From Terriglobia bacterium (GTDB lineage: Bacteria > Acidobacteriota > Terriglobia > Terriglobales > Acidobacteriaceae), in assembly GCA_032252755.1 (NCBI GenBank), contig JAVUPY010000052.1, positions 1-64,000 of the forward strand: 64,000 nt of DNA, in the 5' to 3' direction. A program made the position numbers and the translations under genes. Below the pieces are notes generated by a model. The model did no database searches. It saw nothing but the letters and a program-made list of their open reading frames with translations, and was not told the origin of the DNA. Positions 41,267 to 52,166 of this stretch are shown here, piece after piece. The stretch's first letter is position 1; every line of letters begins with the position of its first letter.

Positions 41267-44098
41267 TCAGTGCTTGTTGGCCGCCTGCCTCGTCTCCGTG
41301 CCGGCGAGTGCCGGATTTCGCGCGAGGCTGACGGCATTTGCGAAGAGGCGGAAGGCTCCTGGAACACCTTCCGGAAGCTGACGATAGAGAGCGTACGCGG
41401 CATAGATGTACACGCCCTTGCCGTAGTGCGCATAGAGGAGCCCGCCCTTCTGCGGATCCTGGTCGGGATCGTGGACCTCGGTCAGAGCGACGTAGTGGGG
41501 ATCCCAGCTTTTCATGAAGCTGTGGCCGCGCTCTTCGACCCAGCCGTCGAAGTCCGCCGAGGTGATTCGATTGGGCCACGCCATCAGCGGATTGCCGGGA
41601 TCAAGGATTTTGACCTTCGCGGCCTCGTCGACGACTTTTTCCGGATCGTTGGTGAGCGAGTAGGGGTAGGGTCCGTAATTGTGGTCATACTGCCCGGAGT
41701 TGTACTGCACAAACAGGACGCCGCCGTTGGCGACGTACTTCAGCAGTCGTCCGTTGTAAGTGACGAGGTCCGGACGCGCGGCGTAGGCACGCACGCCGAG
41801 AACGATGCAGTCGTACCTGGAGAGATCCGCAGTGGCGATGTCTTGCGGGCTGAGGAATTTTGCATGAATGCCTATGTCCTGCAGTGACTGTGCGACCTCG
41901 TCGCCGGTGCCTTCCACGTAGCCGACATTGAGATTGGGAGCAACCTTGAGGTCAACGCCCTGGGTGCGGTAAGTCGCAGGCTCATAGAGCGGATACGGAC
42001 GCAGTCCCTCGTAGCCGGTCATATCGAATCCCTGCTTGTAGCTGTGGCCGTTGTAGGTGGCAACAGCCGTGATGTGGTATGGCTTCTGTTCGAGTTGACT
42101 CGGAGTGACCGAGAATGCCACCTCTTGCTGCTCGCCATTCTTGGCGAGATCGAACTCGGCTTCGGCGGGAGAGGCGGTCCAGCCGGACGGAAGTTCCAGC
42201 TTAACGGTGCCCTTGGCATCACCCTTCACACTAGATTGCAAACTCACATCCAGGTTGAACTTCGTTCCCCCGAGCGGCACCACGCCGGCCTTCGGCGTCA
42301 TGGTGACGGAGATCGCCGGCCCGACTACAAGCGGCTGGTAAACGATGCCGGGGCCAGTGACCCTCTGAACGGTTTGCACCACTTGCCGGAGCGTGATCGG
42401 CTCGCCGTCGTAGGTGAGTTGCAGTTCCGCGGAAAGGGGATAAGGAGTCGTGGGCAGGGACAGGTCCGTTTCGTTGTGGATGTCGTAGTAAGGCTGCTCG
42501 GTGTTGGGCCGGCTGAAATAAGGCGCCGTAAAGGCAGCGTTCTGTGGGACGGTGACCTTGAATTTCTGCGAATCATTCTTGTTGTTCGCCAGCTCGGAGA
42601 CGAATTGGGTCACCGGTTCCACCGTCCATTGCTCACCGGCGGGTGTATGGAGAGCGAGACTGGAAACCTGCACCGGAACGGAACCCTGGTTCGTAGCGCT
42701 TACCTTGACATAAAACGTCTGACCGGGGATCGCAACCTGGAAAGTTTCGGGCGTACCGAAGAACATGGCGAAGCGGCCCGTCGGATCCTTCTCAGGTGCG
42801 ACAGTAGCCAGCATGGTCAGGCCGAGCGATTCGACGAGGGCATCATTGAACTGAACTTCCTTCACGCGCAATTCGTGGTTAACGTTGTACTTGGATTCCG
42901 CCGATAGGTTGCTTGTATCTACGGCGGCAATGAGTGCGCGCGTTGCCTTGAGCCCACGGGCCAGTTCCGGCGCGATCGTCTGCGGATGCTGGAAGTCGAA
43001 TTTTGCAACCGCTTCCTGGACAGCGGAGTTAACCTCCTCGAGTCCTTTCTTCAGGAACGCGGGGTCGCCACCCTTGGCAAGATCGGCGATTCCCATCAGC
43101 GAAACGTCAATACCATCGAAGAAGCTGCTTTCCTTCTCGGGAACCTGCACATCCGACGCCCAGCGGTGGTATCCGACCGGGGAACCGCCGGCCGGTGCGG
43201 GTCCGGTGCCGCCGTTTTGCGACTTTTGAAATCCAAGCCCGGTGCGTGCAATCTGCACGTAGTTCTGGCCGAGAATCGGGTCGTAGTCGGAAGAAGGCAC
43301 TTCGAGCTGAACGGACAGCGGACCATCGTTCCACTTTTTGTGAACGTAATCGTAAAAGCGGACGGGAACATACTTGCCAGTGGCGTAATCGTAGAGGCCC
43401 TTGGGATCGTTCATTGCGAACCAGGGGCTGCGCGAGTAGACCTTGAGTGGCTTCCAAGGCAGCAGTCCAGCCTTGATCTGGTCTGGGAAGACATTCGGAT
43501 CTGCCGCAGCGGTGAACGCCTCCTGCGCCATAACTCCAGCAATCTGGTGATTGCCATGGCCGTCCGTGGGACCGCCGACAAAGACCGAGGTGACGACGAG
43601 CGGACGCGTCATGCGGATCACGCGGACAACGTCGTAGAGCACACGATCGTGTCCCCATTTTTCGAGAGCTTCTTCTTTCGTCTTGGAAAAGCCATAATCG
43701 GCGACGCGGGTAAAGTACTCGCTCACACCGTAGTAACGATCAGCCTGCAACAGTTCCTGGGTACGGACTTCCCCGAGAGCGTCATAATAGTCATGGCTCA
43801 TGATGTTTTGGCCACCCTCACCGCGGTTCAGGGTGAGGAGGACGGCACGGGCGCCTTTGCCGCGCGACTCGTAAGTCAGCATCCCACCATCTTCGTCGTC
43901 AGGATGAGCGGTGATCATGATCAGGCTTGCGCGGGTTTGCAATTTTCGCAAGCTCTGTGCGAGCGCGATAGAGCCACGGTCGAGAGGCAAATTGTTCGCA
44001 TCCGTGGCAGGACGCGTCGAAACGGTAATCGGGGTTTGCGCCCAGCCCGTAAGACTTACCGACATGATGGCAATAACTGCAACCAGGAAGTTCCGCAT
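41267..44098 (-). CDS. large exported PIG-L-family deacetylase
   Basis: 943 residues with a signal peptide (LVAVIAIMSVSLTGWAQT). The N-terminal catalytic domain has AHPDDE at 64-69 with the zinc and catalytic residues H65, D67, D68 and E69, and a later GPTDGHGNHQIAG holding another zinc His. The middle (about residues 430-720) is beta-sandwich, with GQTFYVKVSATNQGSVPVQV typical of NEW3/NPCBM-associated domains. The C-terminal 200 residues (YDCIVLGVRAYAARPDLV, VQYNSGQYDHNYG) look like a glutamine-amidotransferase-like (ThuA-like) fold. The zinc enzyme removes N-acetyl from sugars or related amides in the periplasm. It is nine bases after the permease gene in the ROK-TonB-lyase-permease locus. 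Confidence 0.88.
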   Translation of the reverse strand: MRNFLVAVIAIMSVSLTGWAQTPITVSTRPATDANNLPLDRGSIALAQSLRKLQTRASLIMITAHPDDEDGGMLTYESRGKGARAVLLTLNRGEGGQNIMSHDYYDALGEVRTQELLQADRYYGVSEYFTRVADYGFSKTKEEALEKWGHDRVLYDVVRVIRMTRPLVVTSVFVGGPTDGHGNHQIAGVMAQEAFTAAADPNVFPDQIKAGLLPWKPLKVYSRSPWFAMNDPKGLYDYATGKYVPVRFYDYVHKKWNDGPLSVQLEVPSSDYDPILGQNYVQIARTGLGFQKSQNGGTGPAPAGGSPVGYHRWASDVQVPEKESSFFDGIDVSLMGIADLAKGGDPAFLKKGLEEVNSAVQEAVAKFDFQHPQTIAPELARGLKATRALIAAVDTSNLSAESKYNVNHELRVKEVQFNDALVESLGLTMLATVAPEKDPTGRFAMFFGTPETFQVAIPGQTFYVKVSATNQGSVPVQVSSLALHTPAGEQWTVEPVTQFVSELANNKNDSQKFKVTVPQNAAFTAPYFSRPNTEQPYYDIHNETDLSLPTTPYPLSAELQLTYDGEPITLRQVVQTVQRVTGPGIVYQPLVVGPAISVTMTPKAGVVPLGGTKFNLDVSLQSSVKGDAKGTVKLELPSGWTASPAEAEFDLAKNGEQQEVAFSVTPSQLEQKPYHITAVATYNGHSYKQGFDMTGYEGLRPYPLYEPATYRTQGVDLKVAPNLNVGYVEGTGDEVAQSLQDIGIHAKFLSPQDIATADLSRYDCIVLGVRAYAARPDLVTYNGRLLKYVANGGVLFVQYNSGQYDHNYGPYPYSLTNDPEKVVDEAAKVKILDPGNPLMAWPNRITSADFDGWVEERGHSFMKSWDPHYVALTEVHDPDQDPQKGGLLYAHYGKGVYIYAAYALYRQLPEGVPGAFRLFANAVSLARNPALAGTETRQAANKH

Positions 44099-44107
44099 GA
44101 CGTCTCC

Positions 44108-45607
44108 TCAGACTCTCTCGATATCTGTCTGAACTGCCACTTCAGCCGCCGCCTGCAACTCCAAGGCGTTTCCGAATGGCCATTCCTTGCGAACCACGGC
44201 GCGGACGAGGTAAATCGCCGTGCCAATTACCAGCAGTACGAGCGCGTACTTGATTTCCTTACCGAAGTTGGGCCGGGAAAACAGGATGTAAATGAACCCC
44301 ACCGCCGCAATCAGAGACGGCAGAGGATAAAACCACATTCGGAACGGGCGGCGAAGATCGGGGCGCCGAATCCTGAGGATGATGGCTCCTACTGCCTGCA
44401 ACAGGAACTGCAGCAGGATGCGAATCACGACGAGCGCGGCGATAACGTCAGCCAGCGAGAGGAAACAGAACGCCAGCGCAACGATCCCCAGTACCAGCAA
44501 TGACACGTATGGGAACTTGTGCTTCTTGTGAAGCCTGGCGAACACCCTGAAGTAGTTGCCGTCAAGGGCGGCCGCGTAGGGTACGCGCGAGTATCCCAGC
44601 AGCAGCGAGAACACGGACGCAAACGCTGTCCACACTATCAACGCGGTTATGGCGTATCCCGCCCAGGAGCCGTAGATGCGCTGCATGAGCACCGACATCA
44701 CATAGAAGCGGGTGTCGGATCTCCCGGTAGCCACCAGTTCCTGCCACGGAATGACTCCGATCACGCTGATGTTCATCGTGATGTAGAGAATTGCAATCAC
44801 CACGATTGAAATAAGGACAGCGCGCGGAATGTTCTTTTCTGCGTCTTTGATCTCCTCGCCGAGATAGCAGACGTTGTAGTAGCCCCAGTAGTCGTAAGTC
44901 GCCACCAGCATGGCAGCACCGAGTCCGGTGAAGAATTGGGGGGTGAGATGAAAAGCGTCCTTCGGAAAGGAGAACGCGAGCTTCGCGTTGAAGTGGGTTA
45001 TGCCGGCGAAGATGATCCAACCGAGAGCGAGAAATACTCCGCCAGAAAGGACATGCGACAACCGGGCGATCGCGGTTGTGCGCCGATAGAGCAAGATCAC
45101 CGCAAGAACAACGACCCCGAGCGCGAGGAAGGTTCCTATGCCGACCGTGGCACGCGCTTCCAATCTTCCGAGAAACGGCAAAGTCGCACTGAGATCGTGC
45201 GCGGCGATTTCGGTCTTCAACCGCGGAAAGAAATAGCTGCTGTAGTGCGCCAGCCCGATCGCCCCGGAAGCGATGGACAGCGGCGCTGAAAACGTAAGCT
45301 GCCAGATGAACAGGAAGCTGATGAGGCGTCCGAGTTTGGTTGGACCGTAAATCTCCTTCAGGTAGTAGTACGATCCGCCGGCGTTCGGCATGCTGGCGGC
45401 GAGCTCCGAGATGACCAGACCGTCGCACATGGCGAAGAATGCGCCGAAGATCCAGCCCAGCATCGCCTGCGGACCACCCATCGCACCGATGATCAGCGGC
45501 AGGGTTATGAATGGCCCTACACCCACCATGTCCAGCATGTTGAGCAAGACAGCGGTCCGCAAGCCCATCCCGCGAATCAGCCGGTTTTCCGATTGGGTTT
45601 GGGACAT
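44108..45607 (-). CDS. APC-superfamily amino acid permease
   Basis: 499 residues with about 12 transmembrane segments. The start, GMGLRTAVLLNMLDMVGVG, and the following PFITLPLIIGAMGGPQAML fit the unwound TM1 of APC carriers; ASMPNAGGSYYYLKEIYG is the conserved TM3 approach. WIFGAFFAMCDGLVISELA and YSRVPYAAALDGNYFRVFA are also typical. It is a proton-coupled importer of an amino acid or amine, substrate unknown. It starts four bases after the lyase-like gene's stop, so the two are cotranscribed. The product would pass an amine across the inner membrane to or from that enzyme. Confidence 0.92.
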   Translation of the reverse strand: MSQTQSENRLIRGMGLRTAVLLNMLDMVGVGPFITLPLIIGAMGGPQAMLGWIFGAFFAMCDGLVISELAASMPNAGGSYYYLKEIYGPTKLGRLISFLFIWQLTFSAPLSIASGAIGLAHYSSYFFPRLKTEIAAHDLSATLPFLGRLEARATVGIGTFLALGVVVLAVILLYRRTTAIARLSHVLSGGVFLALGWIIFAGITHFNAKLAFSFPKDAFHLTPQFFTGLGAAMLVATYDYWGYYNVCYLGEEIKDAEKNIPRAVLISIVVIAILYITMNISVIGVIPWQELVATGRSDTRFYVMSVLMQRIYGSWAGYAITALIVWTAFASVFSLLLGYSRVPYAAALDGNYFRVFARLHKKHKFPYVSLLVLGIVALAFCFLSLADVIAALVVIRILLQFLLQAVGAIILRIRRPDLRRPFRMWFYPLPSLIAAVGFIYILFSRPNFGKEIKYALVLLVIGTAIYLVRAVVRKEWPFGNALELQAAAEVAVQTDIERV

Positions 45608-45611
45608 AGGC

Positions 45612-47132
45612 TCAGTCGGTAAAATTCAAGAGCTCCCGTTTCGCTTTTTCGATTTTTTTGGGAAACGCGCGTTCCTGCTCTCTTTTTTCGTTTACCCATT
45701 TTGCGGCCGCGTTCATCTCCGTGCGCGCCACGTCGATTGCTGCCTGGACCGCCTTTGGCGCGGGGCCACCGGGAATCTCCCGAATCGCAACAAAGTGCCG
45801 TGCGTCAAGCGACTCCAGCAGGACCGTGCGGGAAACAGTTAGAGAACGCCCGATCACCTCTGGAGCAAGACGAATGACTTCCCCTACCATGCGGTCGCGA
45901 TCGTATTTGCCACAAGCGACAACCGCCGTGTGCACGAGGCGGTGCGCCATGCGGAAACTCAGCCCTTCGCGACGCACCAGCGTATCGGCGAGTTCGGTGA
46001 CCGAGAGGAAGTCTCCCTGCGCTCGATCAGCCATATGCTCGCGGTCGACTTCGCAGTGCCGCATGACACCGGCAAACAGTTTGAGAGCTCGAGACGCATC
46101 CCGAAACATGGAAAAGACCAGCGGCTGGAGATCGTCTTCGCTGTCGACGATATCGCCGAAGGGTGTGTTATGCGCGCACGTCATAACTGCCTGTGCCTGC
46201 GAAAAAGCCTTCGAGGCCAGGATACGCGTGTGCTCCAGGGACACGGGATTGCGCTTCTGCGGCATGATGCTGCTGGTCTGCACGTAGGCGTCGGTCAATC
46301 GGAGGAAACCAAATTCCTTCATGCACCACTGGAGCAGATCCTGCACATGCTTGCCCAGGCTCACCATGCAAACGGCGATTGCCCCCGCCGATTCGGTGAC
46401 ATAATCGATGGCGGCGATGGCGCCATAAGAATTTAGTTGCAAGCCTTCAAAACCGAGGAGTTCCGCGGTGTAGTCACGGTCGATTGGAAACGCGGTGGTA
46501 GTAATCGCACAGGCTCCGAGAGGGTTGCGATTAATGGTGCTCCAGCAAGCTCGCAGGCGTTCGAAATCGCGCCCGAAGAATTCCACGGCGGCCATGAGGT
46601 AATGCGCAAAGGTCGAAGGTTGTGCCGGTTGGGTGTGCGTATAAGCCGGCATGATGGTGTCGATGTTGGCTGCGGCGAGTTCCAGCAGCGCGGCGCGCGC
46701 GTCGAGTACGTGCTCGGCCACCTTCAAGACCTCGGCCCGAACGGTCATGCGGTAGAGCGTCAGGTCGATGTCGTTCCGGCTCCTGGCCGTGTGCATTCGG
46801 CCCGCCAGGTCCACCCCGACTGCGTCGGCCAGTTTCTCCTCGACAAAGAAGAAGAGGTCCTCGCAGGAACCGTCGTAGGCAGCGGATTTGATTTCATCGA
46901 GTTGCAGCGAATCAAGGGCCTTGAGGCAGGCACGGGCGTCATCCGGCGAGATAATCTTCTGCTTCGCCAGCATAAGCGTATGTGCATAGTGCATTTGCAC
47001 GAGCGCGGACAAAAAGAAACGCTTGCCATCTTCGAAATTCGGTGTGAGAACCGTTTCGGCGTATACGGGAGCCGGAAAGTTTTCAGCGGCGGGACCCGCT
47101 GCGATACCGTTTTTTTTCGAATCAGAGTTCAA
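45612..47132 (-). CDS. argininosuccinate lyase-like enzyme (fumarase/ASL superfamily)
   Basis: 506 residues from TTG 47132 (GGAG six bases upstream). The superfamily signature SSIMPQKRNPVSLEH is at about residue 300, MHTARSRNDIDLTL supplies the substrate-binding loop, and THTQPAQPSTFAHYL the general-acid segment. Canonical ArgH reads RSRNDQ and MPQKxNPDxLE. The changes to RSRNDI and NPVSLEH suggest a paralogue with a different substrate. It would eliminate an amine to release fumarate or another unsaturated acid. An A8 run in the early coding strand could slip. The gene lies between the TonB receptor and the permease; true ArgH is not excluded. Confidence 0.82.
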   Translation of the reverse strand: MNSDSKKNGIAAGPAAENFPAPVYAETVLTPNFEDGKRFFLSALVQMHYAHTLMLAKQKIISPDDARACLKALDSLQLDEIKSAAYDGSCEDLFFFVEEKLADAVGVDLAGRMHTARSRNDIDLTLYRMTVRAEVLKVAEHVLDARAALLELAAANIDTIMPAYTHTQPAQPSTFAHYLMAAVEFFGRDFERLRACWSTINRNPLGACAITTTAFPIDRDYTAELLGFEGLQLNSYGAIAAIDYVTESAGAIAVCMVSLGKHVQDLLQWCMKEFGFLRLTDAYVQTSSIMPQKRNPVSLEHTRILASKAFSQAQAVMTCAHNTPFGDIVDSEDDLQPLVFSMFRDASRALKLFAGVMRHCEVDREHMADRAQGDFLSVTELADTLVRREGLSFRMAHRLVHTAVVACGKYDRDRMVGEVIRLAPEVIGRSLTVSRTVLLESLDARHFVAIREIPGGPAPKAVQAAIDVARTEMNAAAKWVNEKREQERAFPKKIEKAKRELLNFTD

Positions 47133-47161
47133 CGGTTTCTCCTACCTGGCCTGGATAACCC

Positions 47162-47189
47162 GGGCCCGCCGAATGGGGACGGCGGGCCC
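47162..47189 (-). other. intercistronic hairpin between TonB receptor and lyase genes
   Basis: GGGCCCGCC at 47162-47170 pairs perfectly with GGCGGGCCC at 47181-47189. No T-run follows, so it may be a stabilising or partial-termination structure rather than a full terminator. Confidence 0.65.
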
Positions 47190-47194
47190 TTCGA

Positions 47195-50125
47195 CTAGAA
47201 GCGTACTCCAAGTCCAACCTGAACAATTCGACCTTCCAGTACAGTTCCGGTCGGAGCCAACGTTGGAGCTGAAGTGATATTGCCGAGTGAATCAACACCG
47301 GCAACCGTATTCAAGCTAGTGACGTTGGGGTGATTGAACACATTGTTAGCCTCGAACACGAACTGCGGCTTTACTCGCTCCCACAGGTTCGCGAGTTCGC
47401 GCGTGTACCGCAGGTCGACCTGGTAAATGCTCGGGCCGCGGACTGAGTTGCGGCCGACAAATGCCGGGCGCGTCACCGAGGCCGAAATGGGATCGCCGTT
47501 CAGCGCCTTGTTCACGACGATGTTCTGCTGATCGCCAGAAGAGAGGTTTGCCAGAATGGCGAATGTGTTGCCATTCACGATGTGCCGAAGCACAGAATTG
47601 CCGGTGTTCGTTGTGGGCTGCAGGACCGTACTGATCGTGAGGGCCTGCGGGCGATTCGACAGGGTATTTCCGCGATCACGACTGATGTTCGTCGCATCTT
47701 CGATCGGCAGGTTTTGCTCGAAGCTGTTGGCATCCGGTGCATTGCTGATGGAATGCGACCAGGTGTACGAAGCGCTCAACTCCACACCTTGGGACAACCG
47801 GTGCGTGTAGTTCATAACGAGCGCGTCGTAGTTCGAATTTGCCCCGCTTGTCTGCAGCGTAATGCTGTTGAACTCGGGGAACAAACGGGTGCTCGCATTG
47901 ACGGCCGAGTCAAACACGGGACGGCCGTCAGCCAGCGTGCCGATAGGATTGATTAGATTCATATTCCGCAGGTATTCCAGATTGCGGCCGGCGGTATGCA
48001 CATATCCCAACGTCAAGCCGTCACTCTTGGAAAGCTGCTGTTGCACCTGCAGGCTGAAGTTCAGTGTGTAGGCATTCTTGAAGTTCGGAGCAGTCGAGGT
48101 GATGCTCGGCGGTGTACTCGCCGACGGCACCGACGACACGATGGTGGGAAATGCCGGCGCTCCCGGTGAAGTTGGCTGGAACGTGGCACTTGAAAGGGTA
48201 CCGTTATTCAGCAGGGGGTTGAACCACGTGTTCGTCGCCGGGTTATCGTAGAACACTCCTGCGGAGCCGCGCAGAACGGTTTTGCTGGTAAGCCCATAAG
48301 CAAATCCGAAGCGCGGACTGAAATTAGCGCTCGGCGAATTGAACTTGCGGGAATAGACGAACAGCGCGTTGGAATCGGCCGGCGGCGGAGTGTACTTGTC
48401 ATACCTCAAGCCGTAGATCAGCATCAATTTCGGCGTTATCTGCCAGCTGTCCTGGGCGTACATTCCGAAGAATACAGACTTGTAGGTCGGAACCGTTCCG
48501 CCATTGCTGACCGTCGCGGTACTGTAAGCGAACGGATTGGCACCGGACTCGGCAGCGAGATAGTTCTGGATCGCGGTGTTCCCGCCCGAGGCGCTGAAGG
48601 TGTACATCATGTAGGCGGTCGCACGTTGCAGGTCGATGTTCTCTTGCCAGTTTCCGCCGAACTTAAACGAATGGTTGCCGCGAATCCATGTCAGGTTCTC
48701 GTTGAAGCTGGGGATTTTTTCATCGAAGACGTCGCCCGCGCCCGTGGTTCCATTGAAGATCGCCGCGCCCGAGACATTGATCACCGGACCCGGCCCCGTC
48801 AGAGATCCCGGGAAGTGCATGTTCTTGCGGAACGCGTACGAGAAGCGGAACTCGTTCAACAGGCTATTGCTTAGGGTGGAGACCAACTGGAATCCAGCTA
48901 CGTGCGCACGATCCTTAAAATCGGAGAAAGCATCGAGCGCGCTCAATCCGCCGGACGTTGTGTTGAAGGGGAAGTTGTTGCGGAAGTAATTGTAGCGGAA
49001 GAACACCGAATTCTTTTTGCTGACGACCCAGTCGGTGCGGCCATCGACGAACTGGCCGTGCAGCAGGCCGGGGCCGGAGCCCAGGAGGTCCGGACTGATT
49101 CCAAGCGCCGCGGCATTGGCCGCCGTAATAGTAACCGGAGTCGGTTGTCCTCGGGTCAAGTGCTCGTAGGCCCCGAACCAGAACAGTTTGTCCTTGATGA
49201 TGGGACCGCCGACGTCCGCGGCGTAGTCATTCAATCTCAGTTCCGGTTTTGGAGCAGTCGGAGACAGAAGAATGGGTCGCGCGGTCGCATCCACCCACCG
49301 GTGCAGGTAGTTGAACTCGCCGTGAATGTTGTTGGTTCCCGAGTTGGTTATGACGTTGTAGATGTTGCCGGAGGTGCCTCCGAACTCAGGCGCGTAGCTG
49401 TTGGAAACCGTCTGCACCTCACGAACAAAAGTCTGCGAAATCGGAAACAGGCGCAGTCCATGGCGGTCGGTTTGCGTGTCGACCATGCCGTCCATCTGGT
49501 AGTTAATCCGGTCGAGTAGCCCGTTGGTGTTGACAGTACGCGGGATGCCAAGTTCCGGGTTCGGGTGTCCGCTGACGCCGGGCTGGAACAAGATGAAGTT
49601 ATACGGGTTGCGCGACGTCAACGGAAGATTGGCGATTTCGACCGACGAAATCGTTCGCCCTATATCGGCTTGCGTCGTCTGCACGACAGGAACGGCGTTC
49701 GTCACCTCGACCACGGTTTCCACAGTGGCCGGCTTCATAGGCGCGTCCACCACGGCTTCCCTGCCAGCCTCCAAGCGGACATTGGCAGCCTTGATAGTGG
49801 AAAACCCCTGCTTGGTGATTGTCACTTCATACGGTCCCAGTGGAAGATTCGGCAGGACGTAATAACCGTCGCTGTTGCTTTCAATGCTGCGGCTGAAACC
49901 CGTTGCGGTATTGCGCACGACAACCGTCGCGCCTGGCACAGCGGCGCCCGAGGCATCGGCGACCCGGCCACGAATGGAGCCGTTGATCGCCTGCGATTGC
50001 GACCACACACACACTGCGGCCAAAAGAATCAACACGACCAGCATGGCGGCTGAGCGAACAAATTGTTCGCACAGTCTCGCACCGGTAACGCGAACTGACT
50101 CATCATGCTGAATATTGTTTGACAT
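47195..50125 (-). CDS. TonB-dependent receptor (Oar-like, carboxypeptidase-regulatory N-terminus)
   Basis: 976 residues. A signal segment at about residues 25-45 (LVVLILLAAVCVWSQ) precedes a CarboxypepD_reg domain (SIRGRVADASGAAVPGATVV, then SDGYYVLPNLPLGPYEVTI). A plug-like region follows (VPVVQTTQADIGRTISS, IANLPLTSRNPYN) and then a beta-barrel, ending in VQVGLGVRF with the C-terminal Phe of outer-membrane proteins. It imports a large substrate across the outer membrane with TonB energy; the type is expanded in Acidobacteria and Bacteroidetes. A ROK regulator is 49 bp upstream. The ATG at 50125 follows AAAGGTGGGGTG. Confidence 0.92.
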   Translation of the reverse strand: MSNNIQHDESVRVTGARLCEQFVRSAAMLVVLILLAAVCVWSQSQAINGSIRGRVADASGAAVPGATVVVRNTATGFSRSIESNSDGYYVLPNLPLGPYEVTITKQGFSTIKAANVRLEAGREAVVDAPMKPATVETVVEVTNAVPVVQTTQADIGRTISSVEIANLPLTSRNPYNFILFQPGVSGHPNPELGIPRTVNTNGLLDRINYQMDGMVDTQTDRHGLRLFPISQTFVREVQTVSNSYAPEFGGTSGNIYNVITNSGTNNIHGEFNYLHRWVDATARPILLSPTAPKPELRLNDYAADVGGPIIKDKLFWFGAYEHLTRGQPTPVTITAANAAALGISPDLLGSGPGLLHGQFVDGRTDWVVSKKNSVFFRYNYFRNNFPFNTTSGGLSALDAFSDFKDRAHVAGFQLVSTLSNSLLNEFRFSYAFRKNMHFPGSLTGPGPVINVSGAAIFNGTTGAGDVFDEKIPSFNENLTWIRGNHSFKFGGNWQENIDLQRATAYMMYTFSASGGNTAIQNYLAAESGANPFAYSTATVSNGGTVPTYKSVFFGMYAQDSWQITPKLMLIYGLRYDKYTPPPADSNALFVYSRKFNSPSANFSPRFGFAYGLTSKTVLRGSAGVFYDNPATNTWFNPLLNNGTLSSATFQPTSPGAPAFPTIVSSVPSASTPPSITSTAPNFKNAYTLNFSLQVQQQLSKSDGLTLGYVHTAGRNLEYLRNMNLINPIGTLADGRPVFDSAVNASTRLFPEFNSITLQTSGANSNYDALVMNYTHRLSQGVELSASYTWSHSISNAPDANSFEQNLPIEDATNISRDRGNTLSNRPQALTISTVLQPTTNTGNSVLRHIVNGNTFAILANLSSGDQQNIVVNKALNGDPISASVTRPAFVGRNSVRGPSIYQVDLRYTRELANLWERVKPQFVFEANNVFNHPNVTSLNTVAGVDSLGNITSAPTLAPTGTVLEGRIVQVGLGVRF

Positions 50126-50174
50126 TGTTCACCCCACCTTTCCAAATTGGACTGATAGATAACCGGTTCCGAAA

Positions 50175-51422
50175 CTATTCTTCGCTTACCCCCGACCCAA
50201 ATCCGATGCCCGCGGCGTTCGCCTTCCCTCGGCGGCGTTGATAGCCATCGGCCTCAGCCGCCAGGAGCGCGAGCCGCAATGCTCCCATCAATTGAGCATC
50301 AGCACCGAGACTGCTGAGGACAAGCTTTGGACGCGCGAACTCATTGCGGGATAGGTATGAAGCCGTGGCCTTGCGCAAGGCTTCGTTAGCTACTCCCCCG
50401 CCAAGAACAACGAGCGAAACATCCAACACGAGGTTCATGTTGGTAATGGCAACCGCCAGATGCTCGGCGCTGCTTTCCAGCAGTTCCCGAGCTGCGCGGT
50501 CATCCTTCTCGCCCATCTGGAGAATTTCCGTGGCGCGCACGTTCCGGCTGCCATCTTTCAAAGGCGCGTTTTCTCTCCATGCGCGCTCGATGCTTCTGCC
50601 GCCAATCGCGCTCTCGAGGGCCCCCAACCGGTCAACCGCAAGGGCATAGTGCGGCAGGCCGGGAAGCATCATGTATCCAAGCTCACCCGCCGACCAGTTC
50701 GTGCCGTGATGGAGCTGGCCTCGCATCATGATCCCGGCGCCGACGCCAGTCCCGATAGCGAGAAAAACAAAATCGCTCACATTTCGTGCGATACCACACC
50801 AATGCTCACCGAGTGCGGCGAGATTCACATCGTTGTCAATCGTGGCCGGGATCCCGGTCTTTGCCCGCAACAGATCACGGAGGGGCACGTCGTGCCAGCC
50901 CGTCAGGTTGGGCGCGGAAACAACGCGGCCCGCTTTTACGTCTGTCATACCCGGAGCTCCCGCCGCCAGTTTAAGAATCTTCTTCGGTGGAATCCCGTTC
51001 CGTTGGCAAAGCTCACGAACTCCGGCGGCGATCAGGTCAATAACAACTTTGGGAGACCTCCTGACGCCGAGTTCGCACGACCAGCGGCCACGGACAGTTC
51101 CGCACAAGTCTCCCAGCGCGATTCGTACATTCGACCCGCCGATGTCGACTCCGACAACGAATGCATGCTCCCCGTTGAACTCGATTAAACGAGGCGGGCG
51201 TCCGCCGTTGGGCTTACCGTCGCCGATGAACTTCACGACACCCGAATGCTGGAGGGCGCCTATCAATGCGGAGACCGTAGGGGCCGTCAGACCGGAGAGT
51301 CGTACAAGATCCGCACGCGAACAGGGAGCGTGATGTCGCACAAGGCGAAGCAGTTCGCGCGTGTTTGCTTCACGCATCTTCTTGGGGTGGAGCGGGATAA
51401 ACCCTCCCTGGGCGTGCGGCAT
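50175..51422 (-). CDS. ROK-family transcriptional regulator (NagC/XylR type)
   Basis: 415 residues. Residues about 17-75 are a winged helix-turn-helix (TRELLRLVRHHAPCSRADLV; LSGLTAPTVSALIGALQHSG). The sugar-kinase-like ROK domain begins VVGVDIGGSNVRIALGD, with TIDNDVNLAALGEHW and LAIGTGVGAGIM. The usual ROK zinc motif (C-x-C-G-x2-G-C-x-E after GELGH) is absent: the segment reads GELGYMMLPGLPHYALAVD with no Cys. The protein probably represses the TonB-lyase-permease-deacetylase genes below and responds to a sugar-like ligand. MREANTRELLRLV at 51377 is an alternative start. The 183 bp upstream hold an AT-rich stretch but no clear promoter. Confidence 0.89.
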   Translation of the reverse strand: MPHAQGGFIPLHPKKMREANTRELLRLVRHHAPCSRADLVRLSGLTAPTVSALIGALQHSGVVKFIGDGKPNGGRPPRLIEFNGEHAFVVGVDIGGSNVRIALGDLCGTVRGRWSCELGVRRSPKVVIDLIAAGVRELCQRNGIPPKKILKLAAGAPGMTDVKAGRVVSAPNLTGWHDVPLRDLLRAKTGIPATIDNDVNLAALGEHWCGIARNVSDFVFLAIGTGVGAGIMMRGQLHHGTNWSAGELGYMMLPGLPHYALAVDRLGALESAIGGRSIERAWRENAPLKDGSRNVRATEILQMGEKDDRAARELLESSAEHLAVAITNMNLVLDVSLVVLGGGVANEALRKATASYLSRNEFARPKLVLSSLGADAQLMGALRLALLAAEADGYQRRRGKANAAGIGFGSGVSEE

Positions 51423-51605
51423 TTCTGGAGCTCACTTGATCGGGGGCTAATTTAAGACTATTAACTAAGTGCCGTCAAGCCCATTCTTTCGCCTGAGAGT
51501 CATCTTCGTGCCATTAACTTCCGGCGGGCGGTGGATGCAACCAACGGCGGCCGTAAAGCTCTCCCATTCATAAGAGTGTTTACACAATCAGGATAGGAGG
51601 TTGCG

Positions 51606-52166
51606 ATGCGACGAAGCATTAGCCTGTGCGTTCTGGTAGCAGGGCTCACGCTAGCAGCACTCGCCCTGGACCGAGCGGCGGAGCATTTCATGGCCATGGC
51701 GGTTCTGCCACCGAGCGCTGCCGGGAGCAGCACTGTACCGCTGAATATCGATATTCAAGCTTATACAAGTGACTCGACGCTGAACTCGTTAGGGGATATT
51801 CTCTCCGACGGCAACAACCAGACGGCACTGTTGCAGAAGTTTGAATCGATGCCGGGCATCGGTGATGTGTCGCGCGAGGGACGCGTGGGAGTGGAGGTGA
51901 AGGTCATCCGCGTGCAGCAGACGGCGCAGGGACTACGCGAAATCACGATGCTGACAGACCGGCCAATTCACTTCTGTGAACTCACCAATGCTTCTCCAAC
52001 GGCCGACTACCCGTATGGAATGATTCAATTCACGGTGGATCACAACGGCAATGGAACGGGCAAAGCCTATCCCGTCGCGAAAATCAAGAGCATCAGCGCG
52101 AACAATATCTCGATCGATGATTACGGTGTGATCCCGATCCAGTTGACCGTCCACCAGGTTCAATAG
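51606..52166 (+). CDS. exported protein of unknown function
   Basis: 186 residues from ATG 51606, with AGGAGG six bases upstream. Residues 1-22 are a signal peptide-like segment (SISLCVLVAGLTLAALAL). The mature part contains LNIDIQAYTSDSTLNSLGDI, then [20 protein letters not shown] and VGVEVKVIRVQQTAQGLREIT, and ends with DDYGVIPIQLTVHQVQ. It looks like one compact alpha/beta domain. I do not recognise the family. It diverges from the ROK gene and is convergent with galT, so it is its own unit. Confidence 0.75.
   Translation: MRRSISLCVLVAGLTLAALALDRAAEHFMAMAVLPPSAAGSSTVPLNIDIQAYTSDSTLNSLGDILSDGNNQTALLQKFESMPGIGDVSREGRVGVEVKVIRVQQTAQGLREITMLTDRPIHFCELTNASPTADYPYGMIQFTVDHNGNGTGKAYPVAKIKSISANNISIDDYGVIPIQLTVHQVQ

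Follow-up and report, generated by a model that had tools for sequence, protein, structure and literature searches.

What compound is handled by a gene cluster that sets a ROK-family regulator, a TonB-dependent outer-membrane protein (OMP), a member of the argininosuccinate lyase superfamily, an APC-family permease and a large PIG-L/LmbE amidase side by side? Such a unit lies in a 64,000-nucleotide stretch of DNA, referred to here as the window (GenBank assembly GCA_032252755.1, contig JAVUPY010000052.1, positions 1 to 64,000), from the genome of an acidobacterium of the family Acidobacteriaceae (G000; 5.39 Mb, 99.98% complete). The original prediction, made from the letters of the window, described it as a candidate novel catabolic system. 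On the basis of comparative sequence analysis and structure models, we consider it somewhat more likely than not that the five genes form an operon under local control that serves the use of bacillithiol, a common antioxidant of bacteria (L-Cys-D-GlcN-L-malate, in which GlcN is glucosamine), or of its relatives, the N-acetylglucosamine compound GlcNAc-malate and bacillithiol conjugates.

Conservation of the five-gene module

The lyase of the window, designated ASL2, has orthologues with 51-72% identity in 12 of the 149 other genomes of the same family that were searched, and at eight of these 12 loci (L035, L037, L040-L045) the genes for ROK, OMP, ASL2, APC and PIG-L all occur together, with PIG-L either at the operon end or divergent from ROK, often on the other side of it. 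All five are co-located again in L237 and L242. Because of this recurrence, the grouping is not due to chance and the five-gene unit is real; the gene set, the conservation of which the original prediction left to be checked, is not scattered among relatives. The OMP and APC orthologues are retained within the module in relatives, with SSF or ABC transporters instead of APC elsewhere, and a gene for a GlmS-isomerase/NagB-II-like SIS protein adjoins PIG-L or ASL2 in L035, L041, L082, L237 and L242, following PIG-L by 55 bp in L035.

A scan of a genome collection yielded 80 ASL2 loci in Acidobacteria, Bacillota, Alpha-, Gamma- and Deltaproteobacteria, Chloroflexi and others, the nearest named relatives being Acidobacteria, Acidobacteriaceae among them. 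Other acidobacterial families have the order ROK-OMP-SSF-PIGL-ASL2, and Paenibacillus has ROK, substrate-binding protein, ATPase, permease, PIG-L, ASL2 and a NagK-like kinase. In Alphaproteobacteria a substrate-binding protein, two permeases, ASL2, an ATPase and a PfkB kinase are encoded in a row, with a divergent ROK-PIGL-EamA group, a layout found again, in RefSeq annotation, on plasmids of Thalassospira and Aminobacter. A plasmid of Deinococcus wulumuqiensis carries ROK-ASL2-PIGL-ABC-second PIG-L-kinase; its first PIG-L is large and the second (L253:15807-16637) is a 276-aa protein of the MshB/Mca/BshB type. Among the 101 full-length ASL2 loci that had 5.5 kb or more of sequence on each side, 56 have PIG-L and 52 a ROK relative nearby, and neither was found near any of nine true argH loci used as a control. 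Sugar-type transporters and, often, NagK-like kinase or NagB-II/GlmS-like SIS genes are also present in ASL2 loci, and these too are missing from the neighbourhood of the true argH genes tested. In two Paenibacillus operons a further gene stands between PIG-L and ASL2 (L097:9100-9954, encoding a creatininase-family amidohydrolase, and L101:9193-9975). An ASL2 relative of 37% identity on archaeal plasmids of Haladaptatus (L254) lies beside mandelate-racemase-family and MFS genes, with no PIG-L at that locus, and on this account the wider ASL2 family may have other substrates.

Literature searches, most subscription papers being outside their reach, found neither bacillithiol degradation beyond the conjugate amidase nor a pathway of the kind considered here. 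The module is not peculiar to G000, since it extends over several phyla.

The lyase and the amidase

A separate canonical argH exists in G000 (G000:C47), as the original prediction had asked to be ascertained; it scores 530 bits against TIGR00838, versus 343 bits for ASL2, and the two proteins share about 31% identity. In a tree the ASL2 clade stands apart from ArgH with a support of 100. The two groups belong to the same superfamily and share the fold, the expected fumarate product and the catalytic and fumarate-binding motifs (TH.Q and SS.MPQK.NP), which are near-invariant in an alignment of 93 ASL2 and 17 ArgH sequences. They differ in gene neighbourhood, in the FD..L segment, which is conserved in ArgH but missing in nearly all ASL2, and in a series of replacements found in nearly all ASL2, including D297V, Y327D, Q332E and K321H (ArgH to ASL2, window positions). 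The changed positions presumably line the arginine or leaving-group side, as judged from what is known of ArgH and from the equivalents of D290 and Y320 in EDDS lyase. That enzyme, from Chelativorans sp. BNC1 (PDB 6g3d-6g3i), is the closest solved sequence, has the same fold and acts on a non-arginine leaving group, but is only about 30% identical to ASL2. The AlphaFold model of ASL2, with a predicted local distance difference test (pLDDT) score of 93.7, matches ArgH and EDDS lyase equally, at Z of about 42 (about 40-42 for ArgH). In EDDS lyase Q159, D290 and Y320 are close to the substrate (PMC12363623), and in ASL2 they are replaced by H, V and D/I. Because the catalytic motifs are kept and the leaving-group positions are changed relative to both enzymes, we expect ASL2 to act on a compound whose acid half is a C4 unit that yields fumarate and whose other half is probably neither arginine nor similar to ethylenediamine.

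The PIG-L protein (65 bits against Pfam PIG-L; model pLDDT 89.2) contains an LmbE domain whose closest fold match is MshB (Z 22.7; Z 18.7 for BshB), and its C-terminal domain matches GATase1/ThuA-like folds at Z 16. The H-x-D-D motif and the distal histidine are present, and the metal and base residues H65, D67, D68 and H184 are invariant in an alignment spanning phyla. BshB, Bca, MshB and Mca share with it the catalytic-domain fold and the AHPDDE...H..H residues; it differs from them in its length of 943 aa, its signal peptide and the added NEW3 and GATase1-like domains. Against the NCBIfam equivalogs of this group (BshB/Bca/Mca) it scores 45, 33 and 27 bits, far under the cut-offs of 182-277, the top NCBIfam relative, also below cut-off, being Mca. 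According to a review, the LmbE enzymes known by then act on N-acetyl- or N-acyl-glucosamines, including bacillithiol precursors and conjugates (PMC4101496). The presence of PIG-L by itself is uninformative, because 148 of the 150 genomes in the family encode relatives; large PIG-L/NEW3 proteins are near-universal there, including a distant type of about 35-40% identity (G000:C17:72059-73987), and are not tied to ASL2.

By a hydrophobicity heuristic applied to the N terminus, all 23 PIG-L copies examined in Acidobacteria, Bacillota and Gammaproteobacteria begin with an export-signal-like sequence, whereas none of the 21 of the alphaproteobacterial/other group does, so that the alphaproteobacterial enzyme looks cytoplasmic. 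The gene bshC was detected in 10 of 10 acidobacterial and Bacillota ASL2 carriers tested, and was absent from the eight alphaproteobacterial, two gammaproteobacterial and two Chloroflexi carriers tested. As the amidase appears to be exported in Acidobacteria and Bacillota with bshC, predicted makers of bacillithiol are not seen to keep it in the cytoplasm, which would be expected if PIG-L attacks bacillithiol. The rule is one-way only, as gammaproteobacterial carriers without bshC also export PIG-L.

Bacillithiol and its rivals as candidate substrates

The hypothesis that ASL2 acts on glucosaminyl-malate (GlcN-malate) was recorded before any bsh gene had been seen at ASL2 loci. G000 encodes bshA, bshB1 and bshC, and is predicted to make bacillithiol because all three score above curated cut-offs. 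BshC adjoins ASL2 in L083 and L118 and is 2.5 kb away in L038. The L083 contig carries bshB-bshA-PIGL-ASL2 in a row with bshC convergent; as deposited, its bshB (L083:1330-1998) is interrupted by an in-frame stop, due to either sequencing error or decay. In f15 genomes BshC adjoins ASL2 within a shared syntenic block (L218, L221, L228, L229), and seven f21 genomes have BshC-mutL immediately ahead of ROK-OMP-SSF-PIGL-ASL2, with all of these genes on one strand (mutL identified in L243). Across a sample of 297 genomes of the phylum, bshC occurs in 42 of 42 genomes with ASL2 versus 204 overall, with a naive p of about 3e-8 that is inflated by relatedness.

The proposed pathway would begin with passage of the compound into the periplasm through the TonB-dependent OMP. 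The exported PIG-L would hydrolyse the amide on glucosamine, yielding cysteine (or acetate) and GlcN-malate, and the APC permease would import one of these amidase products, cysteine or GlcN-malate. ASL2 would then take the malyl C3 proton and expel glucosamine from C2, giving fumarate and glucosamine in what amounts to a glycosyl C-O counterpart of the C-N cleavage carried out by argininosuccinate lyase. Glucosamine would enter central metabolism via a kinase and glucosamine-6-phosphate deaminase, candidates for which are encoded in the locus of some relatives, and ROK would sense a sugar product and bind the palindrome upstream. Keeping the amidase outside would spare the makers' own pool of bacillithiol, and GlcN-malate brought in from outside could in addition supply BshC. 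The outline given in the original prediction, namely uptake of an N-acylated aminosugar conjugate, de-N-acylation and β-elimination to fumarate, fits the evidence, but in view of the linkage of the module to bsh genes, bacillithiol or GlcN-malate is more likely than the Amadori compounds and murein fragments that it suggested. Amadori/fructoselysine catabolism was rejected, FrlA being a weak match to the APC permease and the SIS proteins scoring far higher as GlmS/NagB-II than as FrlB. The nag and frl operons for aminosugars and fructoselysine do resemble the module in their sugar-type regulator, transporter, kinase and SIS-domain deaminase, and FrlA is distantly related to the APC permease; unlike the module, they contain, to our knowledge, neither a lyase of the fumarase superfamily nor a large PIG-L.

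Several points weigh against bacillithiol use. We know of no demonstration that an ASL fold cleaves a glycosyl ether, and the nearest solved relatives cleave C-N bonds. The bsh linkage seen in several relatives does not hold in G000 itself, where the bsh genes are on other contigs than the module; in f21, mutL intervenes between BshC and ROK; and adjacency of BshC is limited to about three family-level lineages (rough p of about 1e-5), one of which, G135, was taken from the family sample. The co-occurrence of bsh genes with ASL2 is confounded by phylogeny. About 45% of full-length ASL2 loci lack a neighbouring PIG-L, and at L102, L106, L107, L113, L116 and L127 Amidohydro_2 and a sugar ABC transporter replace it; the ASL2 loci so paired come from some Paenibacillus, Hungatella and Chloroflexi, and Amidohydro_2 is possibly a replacement enzyme or possibly a sign of a different substrate.

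Of the rival explanations, the one that survives best, unlikely but to be taken seriously, keeps the same logic and assigns the unit to another N-acyl-aminosugar conjugate with an aspartate or malate unit (a natural product, glycated aspartate or a cell-surface fragment), the bsh linkage being coincidental. It would accommodate the bshC-less alphaproteobacterial, gammaproteobacterial and Chloroflexi carriers, the diversity of ASL2 with its varied transporters, and the lack of any bsh gene near ASL2 in most carriers; it leaves the linkage in separate lineages and the full bsh co-occurrence in the phylum sample to coincidence, and we are aware of no other common metabolite in which glucosamine is linked to a C4 dicarboxylate. 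Detoxification of bacillithiol S-conjugates or cofactor recycling, with PIG-L as an external conjugate amidase and ASL2 clearing surplus GlcN-malate, appears improbable. The affinity of PIG-L to Mca and the EamA exporters or GNAT in some loci are compatible with such a role, as is a DinB_2/mycothiol-S-transferase-like protein, of a superfamily containing bacillithiol transferases, whose gene ends 10 bp before ASL2 in L217 (L217:8774-9295). However, import systems and sugar kinases prevail at these loci, ROK is a regulator of the sugar type, and in alphaproteobacterial carriers that lack bshC there is no pool of bacillithiol that could be recycled.

Degradation of an aminopolycarboxylate metallophore, imported by the TonB receptor and cleaved by an EDDS-lyase-like C-N lyase, is very improbable: the receptor, the closest solved sequence and the tie with ArgH in fold would suit it, but the low identity to EDDS lyase and the replaced contact residues, on which grounds ASL2 was also rejected as an EDDS lyase proper, argue against it, and it leaves the amidase and the aminosugar genes without a role. 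An ordinary second argininosuccinate lyase placed by chance in a transport operon, as the ASL2 score above the TIGR00838 cut-off and the argH label of its homologues in RefSeq might imply, is scarcely credible and was rejected, in view of the canonical argH elsewhere, the distinct clade, the replaced leaving-group residues and the conserved non-arginine neighbourhood.

Layout, regulation and implications

The five open reading frames (ORFs) and the gaps of 49, 62, 4 and 9 bp between them agree exactly with the original prediction, and its domain assignments hold in profile matches, the receptor being refined to an Oar-like TonB-dependent OMP (Table 1).

Table 1. Coordinates of the unit and its candidate operator in the window
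Feature	Position	Strand	Basis
ROK-family regulator (helix-turn-helix + ROK), first gene of the unit	50175..51422	-	Pfam ROK 162 bits, weak HTH_IclR
Oar-like TonB-dependent outer-membrane receptor	47195..50125	-	OMP_b-brl_4 378 bits + CarboxypepD_reg
ASL2, argininosuccinate-lyase superfamily, putative GlcN-malate lyase	45612..47132	-	Lyase_1 + ASL_C2
APC-family permease	44108..45607	-	AA_permease_2 162 bits
PIG-L/LmbE amidase, 943 aa, predicted exported, NEW3 + C-terminal GATase1/ThuA-like domain	41267..44098	-	PIG-L + NPCBM_assoc
Imperfect palindrome CTTAGTTAA-n5-TTAAATTAG, candidate ROK operator	51447..51469	-	motif read by eye

With up to two mismatches allowed, G000 contains no further copy of the palindrome that precedes ROK, and similar palindromes occur in relatives upstream of ROK and, separately, upstream of OMP. 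As the motif was derived by eye from ROK upstream regions, only the copies upstream of OMP and the uniqueness in G000 count as evidence; this distribution fits a dedicated ROK regulator. Scans for sigma-70 promoters and terminators gave no signal above shuffled sequences. The flanking genes are unrelated to the unit (hscA and ferredoxin on the plus strand; galT-like and M24 peptidase genes on the other side). A divergent 186-aa ORF (51606-52166, plus strand) has a sub-threshold match to the GH92 N-terminal domain and no counterpart near the module in the relatives examined.

According to one description (PMC6282198), no low-molecular-weight thiols in biology are more broadly distributed than bacillithiol and its derivatives. 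The broader proposition, which we regard as evenly poised, is that bacillithiol catabolism is widespread in several phyla, including organisms that lack bshC, and that it would employ a new GlcN-malate lyase, effecting β-elimination of a glycosyl C-O bond on an ASL fold, with the amidase placed outside the cell in bacillithiol makers. If true, the module would represent a concrete route for bacillithiol breakdown and a new lyase activity, many proteins annotated at present as argininosuccinate lyase or PIG-L deacetylase would receive a new functional assignment, and the distribution of the module would suggest that bacteria without bshC feed on the thiol of other bacteria.

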